Part shown: one piece after another, positions 2,111-60,194 of the stretch
Layout: every line of letters begins with the position of its first letter
How positions within the stretch are numbered: the first letter of the stretch is position 1
NCBI GenBank assembly: GCA_963576735.1
Contig: OY755173.1
Span: 14,106,873 to 14,170,872 of the forward strand
Reading direction: 5' to 3'
Length of the DNA: 64,000 nt
Source: Bedellia somnulentella
Lineage: Eukaryota; Arthropoda; Insecta; Lepidoptera; Bedelliidae
Translations under genes and position numbers: made by a program
The notes under the pieces: generated by a model
The model's database searches: none
What the model was told of the DNA's origin: nothing
The model's input: only the letters and a program-made list of their open reading frames with translations

Positions 2111-3397
2111 CGAGGGGCATGCCAATAGAAGTTAGATACTCTTTTCTTATTTAATTGACACAGGCAAGCTATACACCATCTTATAGGCTGCTTTTTTATT
2201 GACATATTTTAATATAAAACACACTTCTTTTTATTTGAATGAGCATCAAATTTCTGAGAATCTGGCGGGAATTCACTTGCAACAATGAAGCTCAGTCAAC
2301 GTGATTTTCGCGCTATGATTTATTATGACTTTAAAAAAGGTTTAAAGCCTCAAGAATGTTTTGAACTTTTGGCTCCTACTTTTGGTGAGTCTGCTTGTTC
2401 TCAAGCAACAGTATTCAATTGGTTTGCTGAATTTAAAAGAAGACGGGGATGTCTCGAAGATGAAGCGAAGACAGGACGGCCGCCAACCGCGGTCACGCAA
2501 GAAAACGTTCGTGCAGTCGAAAAACTTATTCGCGTAAACCGACGAATTACATATGTAGAGCTAGAGCGAGAACTAGGAATTTGATCAGCAGCAATGCAAA
2601 CCATAACCCACGACCACCTTTCTCTCCGTAAACGTTGTTCGAGATGGCTGCCGCACAAACTTACCGATGAGCAGAAAGACCGTCGGGTGGATTGGTGCCT
2701 ATTCATGATAGATAAATTCAACGGAGGCGAGAAAAAAAACGTATATGATATACTGACTGGTGACGAAACATGGCTATATAACTATGATCCCGAATCAAAG
2801 CGACAGTGCTTTGAAGACGAGCCAACTCCTACGAAATGTCGCCGTGCACGAAGCACACAGAAACAAATGGTCGTCTCGTTTTTCTGCAAAACGGGTCATA
2901 TTGCTACTGTTGTGCTTGAGAATGAAAGAACGGTGAACTCCAAATGGTATGTGACAGTTTGCGCTCCAACAGTAATATCAGCTTGGTGTGACAAGCGACC
3001 GAAGTCAGGAATCCGGCACCTTCTCTGGCACCACGACAATGCGGCGCCGCACACGTCTGCCAGAACACTAGACTTTTTCAACTCAAAAAATGTGTCAATT
3101 CTCCCTCACCCGCCTTATTCCCCTGATCTAGCGCCTTGTAATTTTCACTTGTTTCCAAAAATCAAAGAAAAACTAAAGGGGAAGAGGTTTGAAAGCAAAG
3201 AAGATGCAATGGTTGCCTATAATTTCGAGATTTCTAAGGTATCTAAAGAAGAGTGGCAACAGGTATTTTCCAATTGGTTCAGACGTATGGAAACGTGTAT
3301 ACGTGCTCAGGGTGAATACTTTGAAAAGATCGATACTTGTAATAAAGAATAATTTATATAATTTTTGAGTATCTAGTTTCTTTTGGCATGCCCCTCG
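2111..3397 (+). mobile_element. mariner-family DNA transposon, 1287 bp
   Basis: 31-bp terminal inverted repeats (2111-2141 and 3367-3397, 28 of 31 matching, outer end CGAGGGGCATGCC) are flanked by TA duplications at 2109-2110 and 3398-3399. Length and layout are typical of mariner. The transposase inside is broken. Confidence 0.97.
2285..3352 (+). pseudogene. mariner transposase, inactivated (in-frame stop, third catalytic Asp to Asn)
   Basis: The reading frame runs 355 codons with one stop, TGA at 2582-2584; both halves are in the same frame. The N-terminal part has the helix-turn-helix DNA-binding region (MKLSQRDFRAMIYYDFKKGL, then a second HTH near SQATVFNWFAEF). The catalytic part shows TGDETW (Asp at 2762-2764), HHDNAAPHTS (Asp at 3035-3037) and YSPDLAPCNFHLF. 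With mariner DD34D spacing, the third acid falls on Asn (AAT at 3140-3142), exactly 34 residues after the second Asp. Cut-and-paste activity would therefore be lost twice over. The near-full length and good TIRs mean it could still be moved in trans. Confidence 0.95.
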
Positions 3398-3399
3398 TA

Positions 3400-3980
3400 A
3401 CGTATTTTAGTCACTGCTCACCTCACATAAACATTAACTTATATCCTATGTTTATTCTGAAGGTGTTCCGATTCTATTGAAAAACTATTGTTAAAATTGC
3501 TTTGGCTGTTTTGAGCCTATTCACTACAGTAAACGCAAAAAATACACCAACAAATCTTTCCTCATTAAAATGAATATACATTTCGGATTCAAAATCTGTA
3601 ACTTCAATGGCAATCTTATTGGTTTCAATAATAACCTTAGATTCTCCATCTTTCTCGAATTTATTCTATCTCTTAATCTCAAATATACTACAAAATCGCT
3701 CTATACTATGGAGTCTTTAGTTTATTTCCATTTCACAATACAACACAAACTTACCTATTATTATGACCTAATAAACTAGTGTGAACTACTGTATGAAAAC
3801 AATAGATAACATAAATCTAACACCCGATACTCGAACCAAAATGTATCAGTAACTGTTGGGAATATCGTTTATTACCTATTCATATTAAATTCTACATGTT
3901 ATGGCCGCACTTAACTTGAATTTATAATGTTATATATTTCGCACAATAACGTTAAATAGGATTATCATGTATTTGCTATA
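3400..3980. other. Spacer between mariner and nuclease element
   Basis: AT-rich. The 69-codon frame at 3570-3779 has no recognisable domain and looks random. Confidence 0.55.
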
Positions 3981-6117
3981 TAATCCAGTCTGTGGGGACT
4001 TATAAAAGCCTTTGCTCTACAAAAGGTGGAGTAAAAGCGGTTTTGACCTTATTTTGTTTAGGTATGGGGACCTAATAAAAATCCAAGTTTTCGACCTTGG
4101 GAGGAAAAGGCGCGAGCCGCCATCTTGAATTGAATGTGCCAAAATTAGGTTTTTTTTAAATAATGCCTCAACAGTTGACTTTGTGGCAAAAGTGTCTATG
4201 AGAAGTAGAAAGAAGACAAAATTACTAACATTTTTCTCATACATGTTTATTCTGTAAGTCTTATAGGTAAAAAGTTACATCTGGTAGAAGAAAAACAAAA
4301 TTACAAAAATCATCAATTTACTTAAATTTTTATACAAAATTATGCAATTACTTTTTAAACCGTTTTGATGGCCCGGGTTGATTAATGTTTACAACTTCAT
4401 TGTCATCGCCGATATTTTCTGTCTCATTATCTGTGACAATCCGGGCTTCTAATGATGACATTTCGTCATTACAGTCCTCGTCATCTATTACAATTTCCAA
4501 CGCATTTCCGCATGACTGACCATTACAGAATCCACACACGACAGAGCATTTTAGTCCAGCTTTTCTGCAGCTACATGGTTTGCCGCATCCTTTTTTGCAG
4601 TGACAAGAAATTATCTTTAAAAGCGCCTGGGGTGCTGCTTTCTCTGTTGTTGTTATTGGAGTGAGCCTATTGGTGTCATATCTCCAGCCCCAGTCTTCTG
4701 GATTTTTTTTAATTCCATACCATTTTTGAACTTGGTGGTATGTCCTAAACGCATGATACCGTGCAGCGTCCTTTGTCGGTGGCAACGAAGCAAGATTGAA
4801 TTTACTTTTAATTGTCGATTGTGCGAATCGTTGATACCGGATTTCTTCTAGGGATTCCTTTTCCATGTCGCCTCCGTACAAAGTAACTATAAAACGTGCT
4901 CCAGCGTCTTCGATTTCTTCTGGTTTTGCTGCTTCATTTTTGTAGACGGCGATGATAGCATTAAGTTGTGGATTTTTCTCAACAAGGGAACAAAATTTAA
5001 TTTTCCCTTGGTTGAAGAGAGACGATGTGGTATCGCAGCCACTAAAAGCATGCAGAAAAAGAATGTTCTTAGCAGCTTCTTTATATTTAAAACAATTAGC
5101 TGAGTATAACTTTTCAGCAGTTCTGCCTCTACCAGGCTTTTGCATGTATATGTTGCTTTGAGGTGGAGATAGTGCTGTTAACAAAGCCAGAAGATCTACG
5201 TCTTCACCAACGACAATTACATGTTCAAATGTTTCACACAAAGATATTGCTGTATTGACGATTAACACGTCAGCATCTTCTTCAGCTTGCTTGACTTCAA
5301 TAGCAGCTTGTTCCATTTTTTGTTTCAGCATTGTTATAAGACGGCTTTTGTTGTTAGTATTAGCCAAAAATCTTTCTTGTGATACTTGAGCTGCCATCGT
5401 TTCATCAAAATGTACATCTGCTGACATATGTTTCTTCGATCGTCGTAGTCTTTCTGCAGACTTTGTATTTTCCTTTGCGCCATCAGATGGATATCCATCA
5501 AAAATAACGACTGCATTTGAACCATAATGATTACGTACATACTGAACGTACCTCTCACAAATTGTCTCAAACTGGTCATTAACATGCCATACTACTTTAT
5601 GTAGTAGATATCCTCCATCTACAACGGTTTTTGTGTTATTTCCGAGTTCCATTTTTTCATGATGCCGTCCCACTCTCTCGCCTAATCAGAGAATGCGGAA
5701 CGGCAACGTTTCATACACCTTGGCCATCGCCGGCATGTCTCGCGGATTACCCCGCGCCGCGTGATAGCTAGCTACCAAGGCCAAAATACATAGAGATGAA
5801 TTTTTTTTTTTGGAAATATTTTATTTCGGCGCTTGTAACTTTTTACCTATAAGACTTACAGAATAAACATGTATGAGAAGAATGTTAGAAATTTTGTCTT
5901 CTTTCTACTTTCCATAGACACTTTTGCCACAAAGTCAACTGTTGAGACATTATTTAAAAAAAACCTAATTTTGGCACATTCAAGATGGCGGCTCGCGCCT
6001 TTTCTTCTCAAGGTCGAAAATTTGGATTTTTATTAGGCCTTCATACCTTAACAACATAACATCATAAACGCTTTTACTCCACCTTTTGTAGGGCAAAAAT
6101 ACCTACAGACTGGATTA
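3981..6117 (-). mobile_element. Long-TIR element carrying a FEN1-like nuclease/CXC gene, about 2.14 kb
   Basis: The left repeat (3981-4277) and right repeat (5834-6117) are inverted copies, about 297 and 284 bp, of good identity with small indels. Outer ends read TAATCCAGTCTGT on the left and its complement on the right. Shared inner blocks include AAAAGGTGGAGTAAAAGCG, GGCGCGAGCCGCCATCTTGA and ACAGAATAAACATGTATGAG. ATA lies just outside each end, a possible 3-bp target duplication, though a 4-bp TTAA-like site with one mismatch is also possible. The only gene between the repeats is the minus-strand ORF at 4348-5673. Confidence 0.88.
4348..5652 (-). CDS. FEN1/XPG-like (PIN-fold) nuclease with C-terminal CXC Cys-rich domain
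   Basis: Intact minus-strand ORF of about 434 residues from the first ATG (5652-5650); the frame is open a little further up, to a stop 19 bp above the GTG at 5673. I read it as a flap-nuclease relative: VVDGGYLL (first metal Asp), then VVIFDGYPS and NTKSAERLRRSKK resembling the FEN1 VFDG...KRSERR helix, EEDADVLI in place of EAEA, VVGEDVDLLALL in place of the ED.D site, and HAFSGCDTTSSL in place of the LLG.DY site. The C-terminus has CHCKKGCGKPCSCRKAGLKC and further Cys pairs (CXC/tesmin-like, zinc-binding), then an acidic tail and a basic end SKRFKK. It is alone inside long inverted repeats, so it is probably the element's own mobility or maintenance protein. The function is inference. CTCTGATTAG just upstream might be an acceptor for a further 5' exon. 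Confidence 0.8.
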   Translation of the reverse strand: MELGNNTKTVVDGGYLLHKVVWHVNDQFETICERYVQYVRNHYGSNAVVIFDGYPSDGAKENTKSAERLRRSKKHMSADVHFDETMAAQVSQERFLANTNNKSRLITMLKQKMEQAAIEVKQAEEDADVLIVNTAISLCETFEHVIVVGEDVDLLALLTALSPPQSNIYMQKPGRGRTAEKLYSANCFKYKEAAKNILFLHAFSGCDTTSSLFNQGKIKFCSLVEKNPQLNAIIAVYKNEAAKPEEIEDAGARFIVTLYGGDMEKESLEEIRYQRFAQSTIKSKFNLASLPPTKDAARYHAFRTYHQVQKWYGIKKNPEDWGWRYDTNRLTPITTTEKAAPQALLKIISCHCKKGCGKPCSCRKAGLKCSVVCGFCNGQSCGNALEIVIDDEDCNDEMSSLEARIVTDNETENIGDDNEVVNINQPGPSKRFKK

Positions 6118-6394
6118 ATACCTTGAGTGTTTTGATTATATGTTCGTACGTTATTGCCAAAGGAAATTAGTTTAATACACATATATTTTATACTATGTGT
6201 TTCGTTTGTATGGGTAAAAATAACAATAAAACATAATAATACCAAGATTTAATTTCAAATTTGAACCCTTAAACAAGATAGAAATTCAGAAATGGACCAA
6301 AAAAACAAAGATAAATGCTTAGATTAATTTACTTTTACTATTTAGTAGCTTGAAAATCTCTACATCCGTTTAAATGCTTTCCGTTGTTCGATAT

Positions 6395-6696
6395 GACTTT
6401 CAATACATACATACATTTACTCACGTCACGCCGCGCAGTTAGTTCCCATTGATTAGCAAGCAGAGACTTTCGATTGCCACTTTGTACGATCCTGGATGAT
6501 CTCTCGAGCTTCGTCTACATTTATCAATCTTTCCATACATGATCTCTTGTACTTACTACTTTGGACGCCTGCCTTTTTAAGCTAATTCTCTATTTTAATG
6601 ACATTATTTTACGTTGGCTCTATAAATCTCTTTTACCAATTTACAATCATACATCCTTTTTATGTACCCAAACCATCATACTCGTAACATTCAAAA
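6395..6696 (-). mobile_element. LINE-C fragment, diverged
   Basis: ACATACATACATTTACTCAC start (3' tail) and TTAGTTCCCATTG, GCCACTTTGTACGATCCTGG, TGCCTTTTTAAGC match LINE-C in reverse. Strongly diverged. Confidence 0.8.
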
Positions 6697-22777: not shown

Positions 22778-46178
<23,401 letters not shown>

Positions 46179-59036: not shown

Positions 59037-60106
59037 ACATACATATACATACATATTCTCACGCCGTTAGTTCCCATTGGGGTAGGCAAAGACTATCGAT
59101 CGCCACTTTGTACGATCCTGGCAAACCTCTCTGGCTTCGTTTACATCCATCAATCTTTTCATACATGCTCATTTATTCTTCATACTGCGGACACCTGCCT
59201 TTTTGAGCACATGTTCTATTTGATCCAAATGTGTCCTCCGAGGTCGTCCTCTACTAACATTACCTTCCACATTGGCTCTATATATCTCTTTCACCAATTT
59301 ACTGTCATCCATCCTCTCTATGTGCCCAAACCATCTCAACATTCCTTTATCTATCTTTCTTACAATATCATCTTTTACACCACACCTTTCACGAATCACA
59401 TCATTCCTCACACGATCACATAACCCTACATTACACACTTTTCTGAGGGATCTCATTTCTACTGCATTCACTCTACTTTCATGCTTCTTCTGCCACACCC
59501 AACATTCACTGCCATACATAAGCGTAGGAACGAGGACAGCATCATGCACAGCCATTCGGGCCTTTGCAGACACCGACTGACTAGACATTAGACTATCCAG
59601 TGCTCCATTTACCGCATTACCCTTTTTCACTCTTCTCTCGATATCTTCATCACACTTTCCATCCCTAGTAAACAAACTTCCTAAATATACAAACTCTTTC
59701 ACTTGTTCCACTTTCTTACCATTAATCTCAATCACGCATTCGGTCATATTCACCTCTCTCTCAAAAACCATAGTTTTTGTTTTATCCACATTCACCCTCA
59801 TTCCCTTTTTCTCAAAAGACGCACATGCAATATTCATCATCTCTTGCAGCTCTTCCACCGATGATGCAAGTAGCACTTGATCGTTGGCATATAAGAGGCA
59901 TTTAATGATGAATCCACCCATTCTCAATCCATAATCACTTTCACGCAACTCTGTTAAACAGTCATCCATGAACAAATTGAAGGGCCACGGGGAAGCTACA
60001 CAACCCTGTCGGACACCCCGAGAGATCCCGAACCAGTCAGTATTTTCCCCGTTTACTCTCACACATGCACTGGAATCCTCATAGAGTGATACCAGTGCAC
60101 GTATAA
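59037..60106 (-). mobile_element. LINE-C (RTE-like) copy, 5'-truncated, 10-bp target-site duplication
   Basis: GTTCAGAATT flanks both sides (59027-59036 and 60107-60116). The 3' end has the C-family hairpin and TATG repeats. It is the longest LINE-C copy in the window and defines the family. Confidence 0.92.
59169..60062 (-). pseudogene. LINE-C reverse transcriptase fragment with mutated YADD (YAND)
   Basis: 297 codons of RT palm, thumb and C-terminus: GISRGVRQGCVASPWPFNLF, LLYANDQVLLASSVEELQEM, YLGSLFTRDGKCDEDI, LMYGSECWVWQKKHE, MLRWFGHIERMDDSKLVKE and GRPRRTHLDQIEHVLKKAG. The first Asp of the catalytic pair is Asn (codon complement at 59883-59885). The ORF stops at MKNK because AGA became TGA; sister copies continue RACMKRLMDVNEA. 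Not functional. Confidence 0.92.
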
Positions 60107-60194
60107 GTTCAGAATTGTAAGATATATAAAACGGTTTTCATGGATAATTGCCTGAAAACCATTTGTTCTTTCAAAACTGGTTTTCTAGCTGTTG

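Follow-up and report, generated by a model that had tools for sequence, protein, structure and literature searches.

How could an element that is bounded by two long inverted repeats, and whose single long gene encodes a nuclease, have moved within a genome? The question is raised by a stretch of approximately 2.1 kb (positions 3981–6117) on contig OY755173.1 of Bedellia somnulentella, which lies in a window of 64 kb (the whole stretch of DNA that was analysed). The element is most likely a crippled DNA transposon and not a new transposition route, and very probably it descends, as a non-autonomous copy with an internal deletion, from an AcademX-like DNA transposon.

Inverted Repeats, Flanks, and Neighbouring Sequences

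The element is delimited by a left terminal inverted repeat of 299 bp (3981–4279, plus strand) and a right one of 284 bp (5834–6117, minus strand), both identified by repeat alignment. Aligned with each other, the arms share 91.45% identity over 269 columns (E = 1.6e-107), a pairing that is far above chance and that bears out the two long inverted repeats described in the first-pass annotation of this DNA. The arms pair in three successive ungapped pieces of 150 nt (97%), 120 nt (89%), and 21 nt (86%), and their outermost bases, TAATCCAGTCTGT, match at both ends of the element. A search of the window with the repeat-end pattern gave zero-mismatch matches at the two element ends only, and no other sequence in the 64 kb matched any part of the element at an E value of 1e-3.

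Adjoining the outermost repeat base on either side is the trinucleotide ATA (3978–3980 and 6118–6120), a candidate 3-bp target-site duplication such as insertion of the element would leave. This match, known from one copy, has a chance of 2.1% for random pairs at a fixed boundary; a scan of 15 boundaries gave one more 3-bp match, located 5 bp outside the repeats. No DNA relatives of the element were confirmed in viral or prokaryote contigs, no protein match to its open reading frame (ORF) was found in phages, and the region 3500–6500 contained nothing in Rfam at the gathering threshold.

Elsewhere in the window, a truncated transposase ORF of 252 aa, which we take to be mariner-like, is found at 2594–3352 (plus strand), its match to DDE_3 (E = 9e-5) being below the cut-off. 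ORFs at 33030–35004 (plus strand) and 59169–60137 (minus strand) resemble, by eye, fragments of LINE endonuclease/reverse transcriptase, and a run of consecutive long ORFs of up to 603 aa at 35236–39620 (minus strand) has, by eye, the appearance of a non-LTR retrotransposon that is lightly broken and encodes an endonuclease and a reverse transcriptase. There is also a tandem array at 25267–25891, comprising 3.8 copies (95%) of a GC-rich 165-bp unit. In one frame it encodes about 50 residues and one stop per unit, with a hydrophobic, membrane-anchor-like stretch, and it looks like a repeated exon or a captured gene piece.

The Nuclease Reading Frame and Its Cysteine-Rich Tail

The single long ORF between the repeats is on the minus strand (4348–5652) and reads through 434 aa from its first ATG, at 5652, to a stop at 4348; an alternative GTG start at 5673 would extend it to 441 codons. 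Each of the FEN-type motifs named in the first-pass annotation is present (VVDGG, FDGYPS, KSAERLRR, EEDADVLI, GEDVDLLALL, and SGCDTTS). All seven nuclease acids occur in order, and among the rows of alignment A1 with a letter at the position they are conserved in 48/48 (D12), 49/49 (D52), 50/50 (D126 and D128), 48/50 (D151 and D153), and 48/48 (D207).

On the basis of predicted fold and conservation, the nuclease domain comprises ORF residues 1–318 (4699–5652). Its FEN1/EXO1 type was confirmed in the predicted structure, in agreement with the FEN1-like enzyme proposed from the motifs. With the FEN1/EXO1/XPG (Rad2) enzymes the ORF shares this predicted fold and the ordered, clustered active-site acids, flap cleavage being the predicted activity. 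Unlike them it ends in a CXC-like tail, has approximately 14% identity to EXO1 in structure comparison, and lacks a segment matching EXO1 residues 2–16, i.e., the N-terminal segment before the first Asp; the structural alignment to EXO1 begins at EXO1 residue 17 for the ORF and at residue 2 for a long relative, P0133. A profile built from the ORF's own alignment matched EXO1 only at E ~1, while one built from the long proteins did so at 5e-4.

The tail contains a CXC-like module of nine cysteines (ORF residues 350–381; 4510–4605, minus strand), which are kept in 45–48 of 47–49 alignment rows, and some relatives of the ORF, among the matches listed, are named CXC proteins. To this extent the CXC tail described previously is upheld, but a Pfam search of the ORF gave no match to the CXC domain, nor to the XPG domain. 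The last four cysteines are spaced unlike those of the canonical tesmin/TSO1 CXC motif. Weak Pfam matches of the ORF to CowN and Gp7_helical were taken as chance.

The ORF had also been called intact. It is uninterrupted as it stands, but when set against the long relatives it appears to be the C-terminal fragment of a transposase–nuclease fusion protein. It preserves 67 of 68 near-invariant positions, ranking 12th among 50 alignment rows, and hence either the copy of the element arose recently or selection acts on the fragment, both of which fit this preservation equally. KP-type P-element repressors offer an analogy for the second case, in which the truncated nuclease–CXC protein could have been retained to regulate in trans, e.g., as a repressor that binds the repeats via its CXC module. 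The undecayed ORF with its preserved sites, together with a first ATG preceded by A at −3 and followed by G at +4, would suit such a role. However, the fragment is known from one copy and a recent deletion yields the same picture, and we regard this explanation as unlikely.

Long Relatives and the Part Missing from the Element

A protein search with the ORF identified 367 relatives, of which the best 120 were listed. A few of those listed are automatically named Exonuclease 1 or Protein asteroid, and the listed relatives have the nuclease followed by the CXC-like tail, the order also found in the long fusion proteins. In these long relatives (up to 1,312 aa) the nuclease is at the C-terminal end and a D/D/E region is upstream of it within one polypeptide. 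Among 51 proteins of at least 900 aa, the nuclease VDGG motif was present in 44, the E motif in 44, the second D in 39, and the first D in 20, with the full motif set in 11 by a strict count. A group of 82 further proteins of at least 1,200 aa gave corresponding figures of 73, 82, 74, and 58, with nuclease FDG in all 82 and the full set in 25 (strict count); the nine without the VDGG pattern lack it despite having more than 300 aa after the E motif. The nuclease was downstream of the E motif in 78/78 proteins with both, at a median distance of 226 residues.

Alignment of 34 long relatives placed the second D (D280 of P0133) and the E (E520) in all 34 rows, and three candidates for the first D (P0133 positions 114, 117, and 124) in 23/25, 24/25, and 25/26 of the rows with a letter. 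In the predicted model of P0133 (pLDDT 82.7), the first-D candidates are in or near the strand 108–118, D280 follows directly after the strand 275–279, and E520 is in the helix 515–528. This strand/strand/helix order of acids, with a large helical insertion, is the arrangement expected for an RNase H-like core of DDE type. The Pfam family DUF6589 was detected in 10 of the 34 relatives (best E 5.9e-4) and in two of six further ones (best 1.2e-5, in P0247, scoring 24.7 bits where the cut-off is 27), and no transposase family was among the 25 results shown for the 34. One fold search with P0133 gave 50 listed matches that all fall on the nuclease part; in other whole-model searches the best 50 of 279 and the best 50 of 214 matches were mostly named as FEN, XPG, EXO1, or XRN nucleases, the latter set including some uncharacterised or unnamed proteins. 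Judged by its motifs and by the model, the region upstream of the nuclease is probably a DDE transposase. The full-length relatives would accordingly contain, at the level of motifs, the conventional transposase that the first-pass annotation had named as evidence against its own reading.

That reading had the nuclease drive transposition by a mechanism not built on DDE chemistry, the FEN1-like enzyme and the CXC finger cutting and joining at the repeats. It is consistent with an uninterrupted sole long ORF in which every nuclease acid is present, and with five of 34 relatives with the nuclease motif no more than 75 aa from their start, which by eye lack the usual upstream linker. In the other 29 the first residues, again by eye, already belong to the linker of the long protein; these short relatives therefore resemble truncated records or gene models, and a nuclease-only family among them was rejected on this ground. 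FEN1-type enzymes, moreover, cleave flaps and have no end-joining activity, and nothing in the fragment corresponds to EXO1 residues 2–16. With D/D/E motifs found upstream of the same nuclease, as the C-terminal part of transposase-like long relatives, a nuclease-only transposon is very unlikely, and the claim of nuclease-driven transposition is not upheld.

An element that has lost the upstream part of such a fusion protein is the reading preferred here. The first-pass annotation was correct in stating that the element has no transposase of its own, the upstream part of the relatives having no match elsewhere in the window either. When the relatives were mapped to the window, 216 of 217 matched it, and 222 of the 224 matched stretches were inside the element. 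The matches begin in 161 of these 222 stretches at 5601–5675, either at VVDGG or immediately before it (59 at 5625 and 35 at 5637). Complete relatives have about 1,100 more codons where the element has the spacer between the ORF and the right repeat (5653–5833), and the deletion junction would, from these sequence comparisons, be somewhere in about 5640–5720. Its position is not exact, and a remnant of the linker may be left, because 20 of the 222 stretches run weakly beyond 5675, mostly as YE..PF against the relatives' linker, across a stop codon. The spacer was unmatched in plasmids. It includes a GC-rich block (5674–5800; 53.5% GC vs 34.7% for the window), which could represent either the parent gene's 5′ leader or filler DNA at the site of the deletion. 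The YE..PF stretch, with its weak likeness to the relatives' linker, lies in this block. The two matched stretches outside the element both derive from P0066 and resemble LINE reverse transcriptase by eye; this relative has a LINE-like tail fused behind its nuclease region.

The fusion architecture also bears on the second proposal of the first-pass annotation, namely that the nuclease was captured by an element mobilised in trans. Mobilisation in trans is the best reading, but capture is unsupported. A nuclease gene taken up from the host by an unrelated inverted-repeat element would be consistent with repeats that were not tied to an autonomous parent, no DNA relatives having been confirmed in the viral and prokaryote contigs. 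Against this, the listed relatives share the order of nuclease and CXC-like tail with the long fusion proteins, and the similarity to solved EXO1 is remote even by the long-protein profile, despite the few exonuclease-like automatic names. Host capture is considered highly improbable.

Placement and Movement of the Element

The Academ superfamily is counted among those with a DDD/E transposase in PMC9587614, and its copy counts in an aphid are reported in PMC9783078. In PMC10045372, target duplications are given as 9 or 10 bp for AcademH and 3 or 4 bp for AcademX, and these lengths are tied by the author to the encoded helicase and nuclease, respectively. These statements on target duplications and DDD/E class, together with the fusion architecture of the relatives, put the parent element within AcademX or close to it. 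As in AcademX, there are terminal inverted repeats at both ends, long relatives in which, by their motifs, the nuclease appears to be joined to a DDE-like region, and a nuclease module rather than the AcademH helicase (the AcademX nuclease feature being taken from PMC10045372). The candidate ATA duplication is within the 3 or 4 bp given there for AcademX, on one copy and at a chance of 2.1%. Unlike AcademX, the element itself has no transposase region, and it is filed on this account as an internally deleted derivative and not as an autonomous member; the likeness rests on features and not on alignment to reference Academ sequences. A connection to AcademH was not drawn, since a further protein search (602 matches, the best 120 listed) gave, among those listed, a single protein with a precomputed Pfam annotation, DUF6589, and no helicase. 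The nuclease of AcademX was reportedly assigned to the XPG type by Kojima in 2020.

Internally deleted transposons of the Ds or KP kind keep their ends, lose the transposase, and contain a remnant of the parent gene. The element resembles them in all three respects and differs in that its remnant is a nuclease domain with every active-site acid. An accessory nuclease alongside a DDD/E transposase is also described for KolobokP, KolobokE, and KolobokD; unlike the FEN1-like enzyme found here, those nucleases are of the His-Me finger, lambda-exonuclease-like, and DnaQ types (PMC9587614).

For the internally deleted AcademX-like copy, we infer DDE catalysis, mobilisation in trans, a role for the nuclease, and a deletion event, as follows. 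The complete parent would encode a protein of approximately 1,500 aa with a Cys-rich N-terminus, a DDE-type transposase, a FEN1/XPG-type nuclease, and a CXC-like tail. A deletion would have removed part of the gene upstream of the nuclease motif, leaving both repeats and the last 434 codons, and it may have preceded the element's move or occurred in place; internal deletions usually arise through abortive repair following excision. A full-length transposase from elsewhere in the genome would bind the repeats, excise the element by DDE chemistry, and insert it with duplication of 3 bp of target, and the nuclease of that full-length protein may trim flaps or joints where the ends are cut or joined. 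The nuclease fragment in the element would be a passenger, because it comes without the transposase and without the N-terminal segment of EXO1-type enzymes. A literature search, with most subscription papers outside its scope, found no test of what a flap nuclease does when joined to a DDE-type transposase, and to our knowledge the role of such a nuclease has not been tested. It is improbable that the element is a self-standing mobile or parasitic one, with its truncated nuclease–CXC fragment selected as a trans helper or repressor of the AcademX-like parent.

An apparent transposon without a transposase would in this way be explained as the leftover of a transposase–nuclease fusion, one whose nuclease acids and tail cysteines are strongly conserved across the relatives. 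The fragment would be a ready-made, stand-alone version of the flap-nuclease module. Should it prove to be under selection, it would stand out as an unusual protein that regulates or assists transposition.
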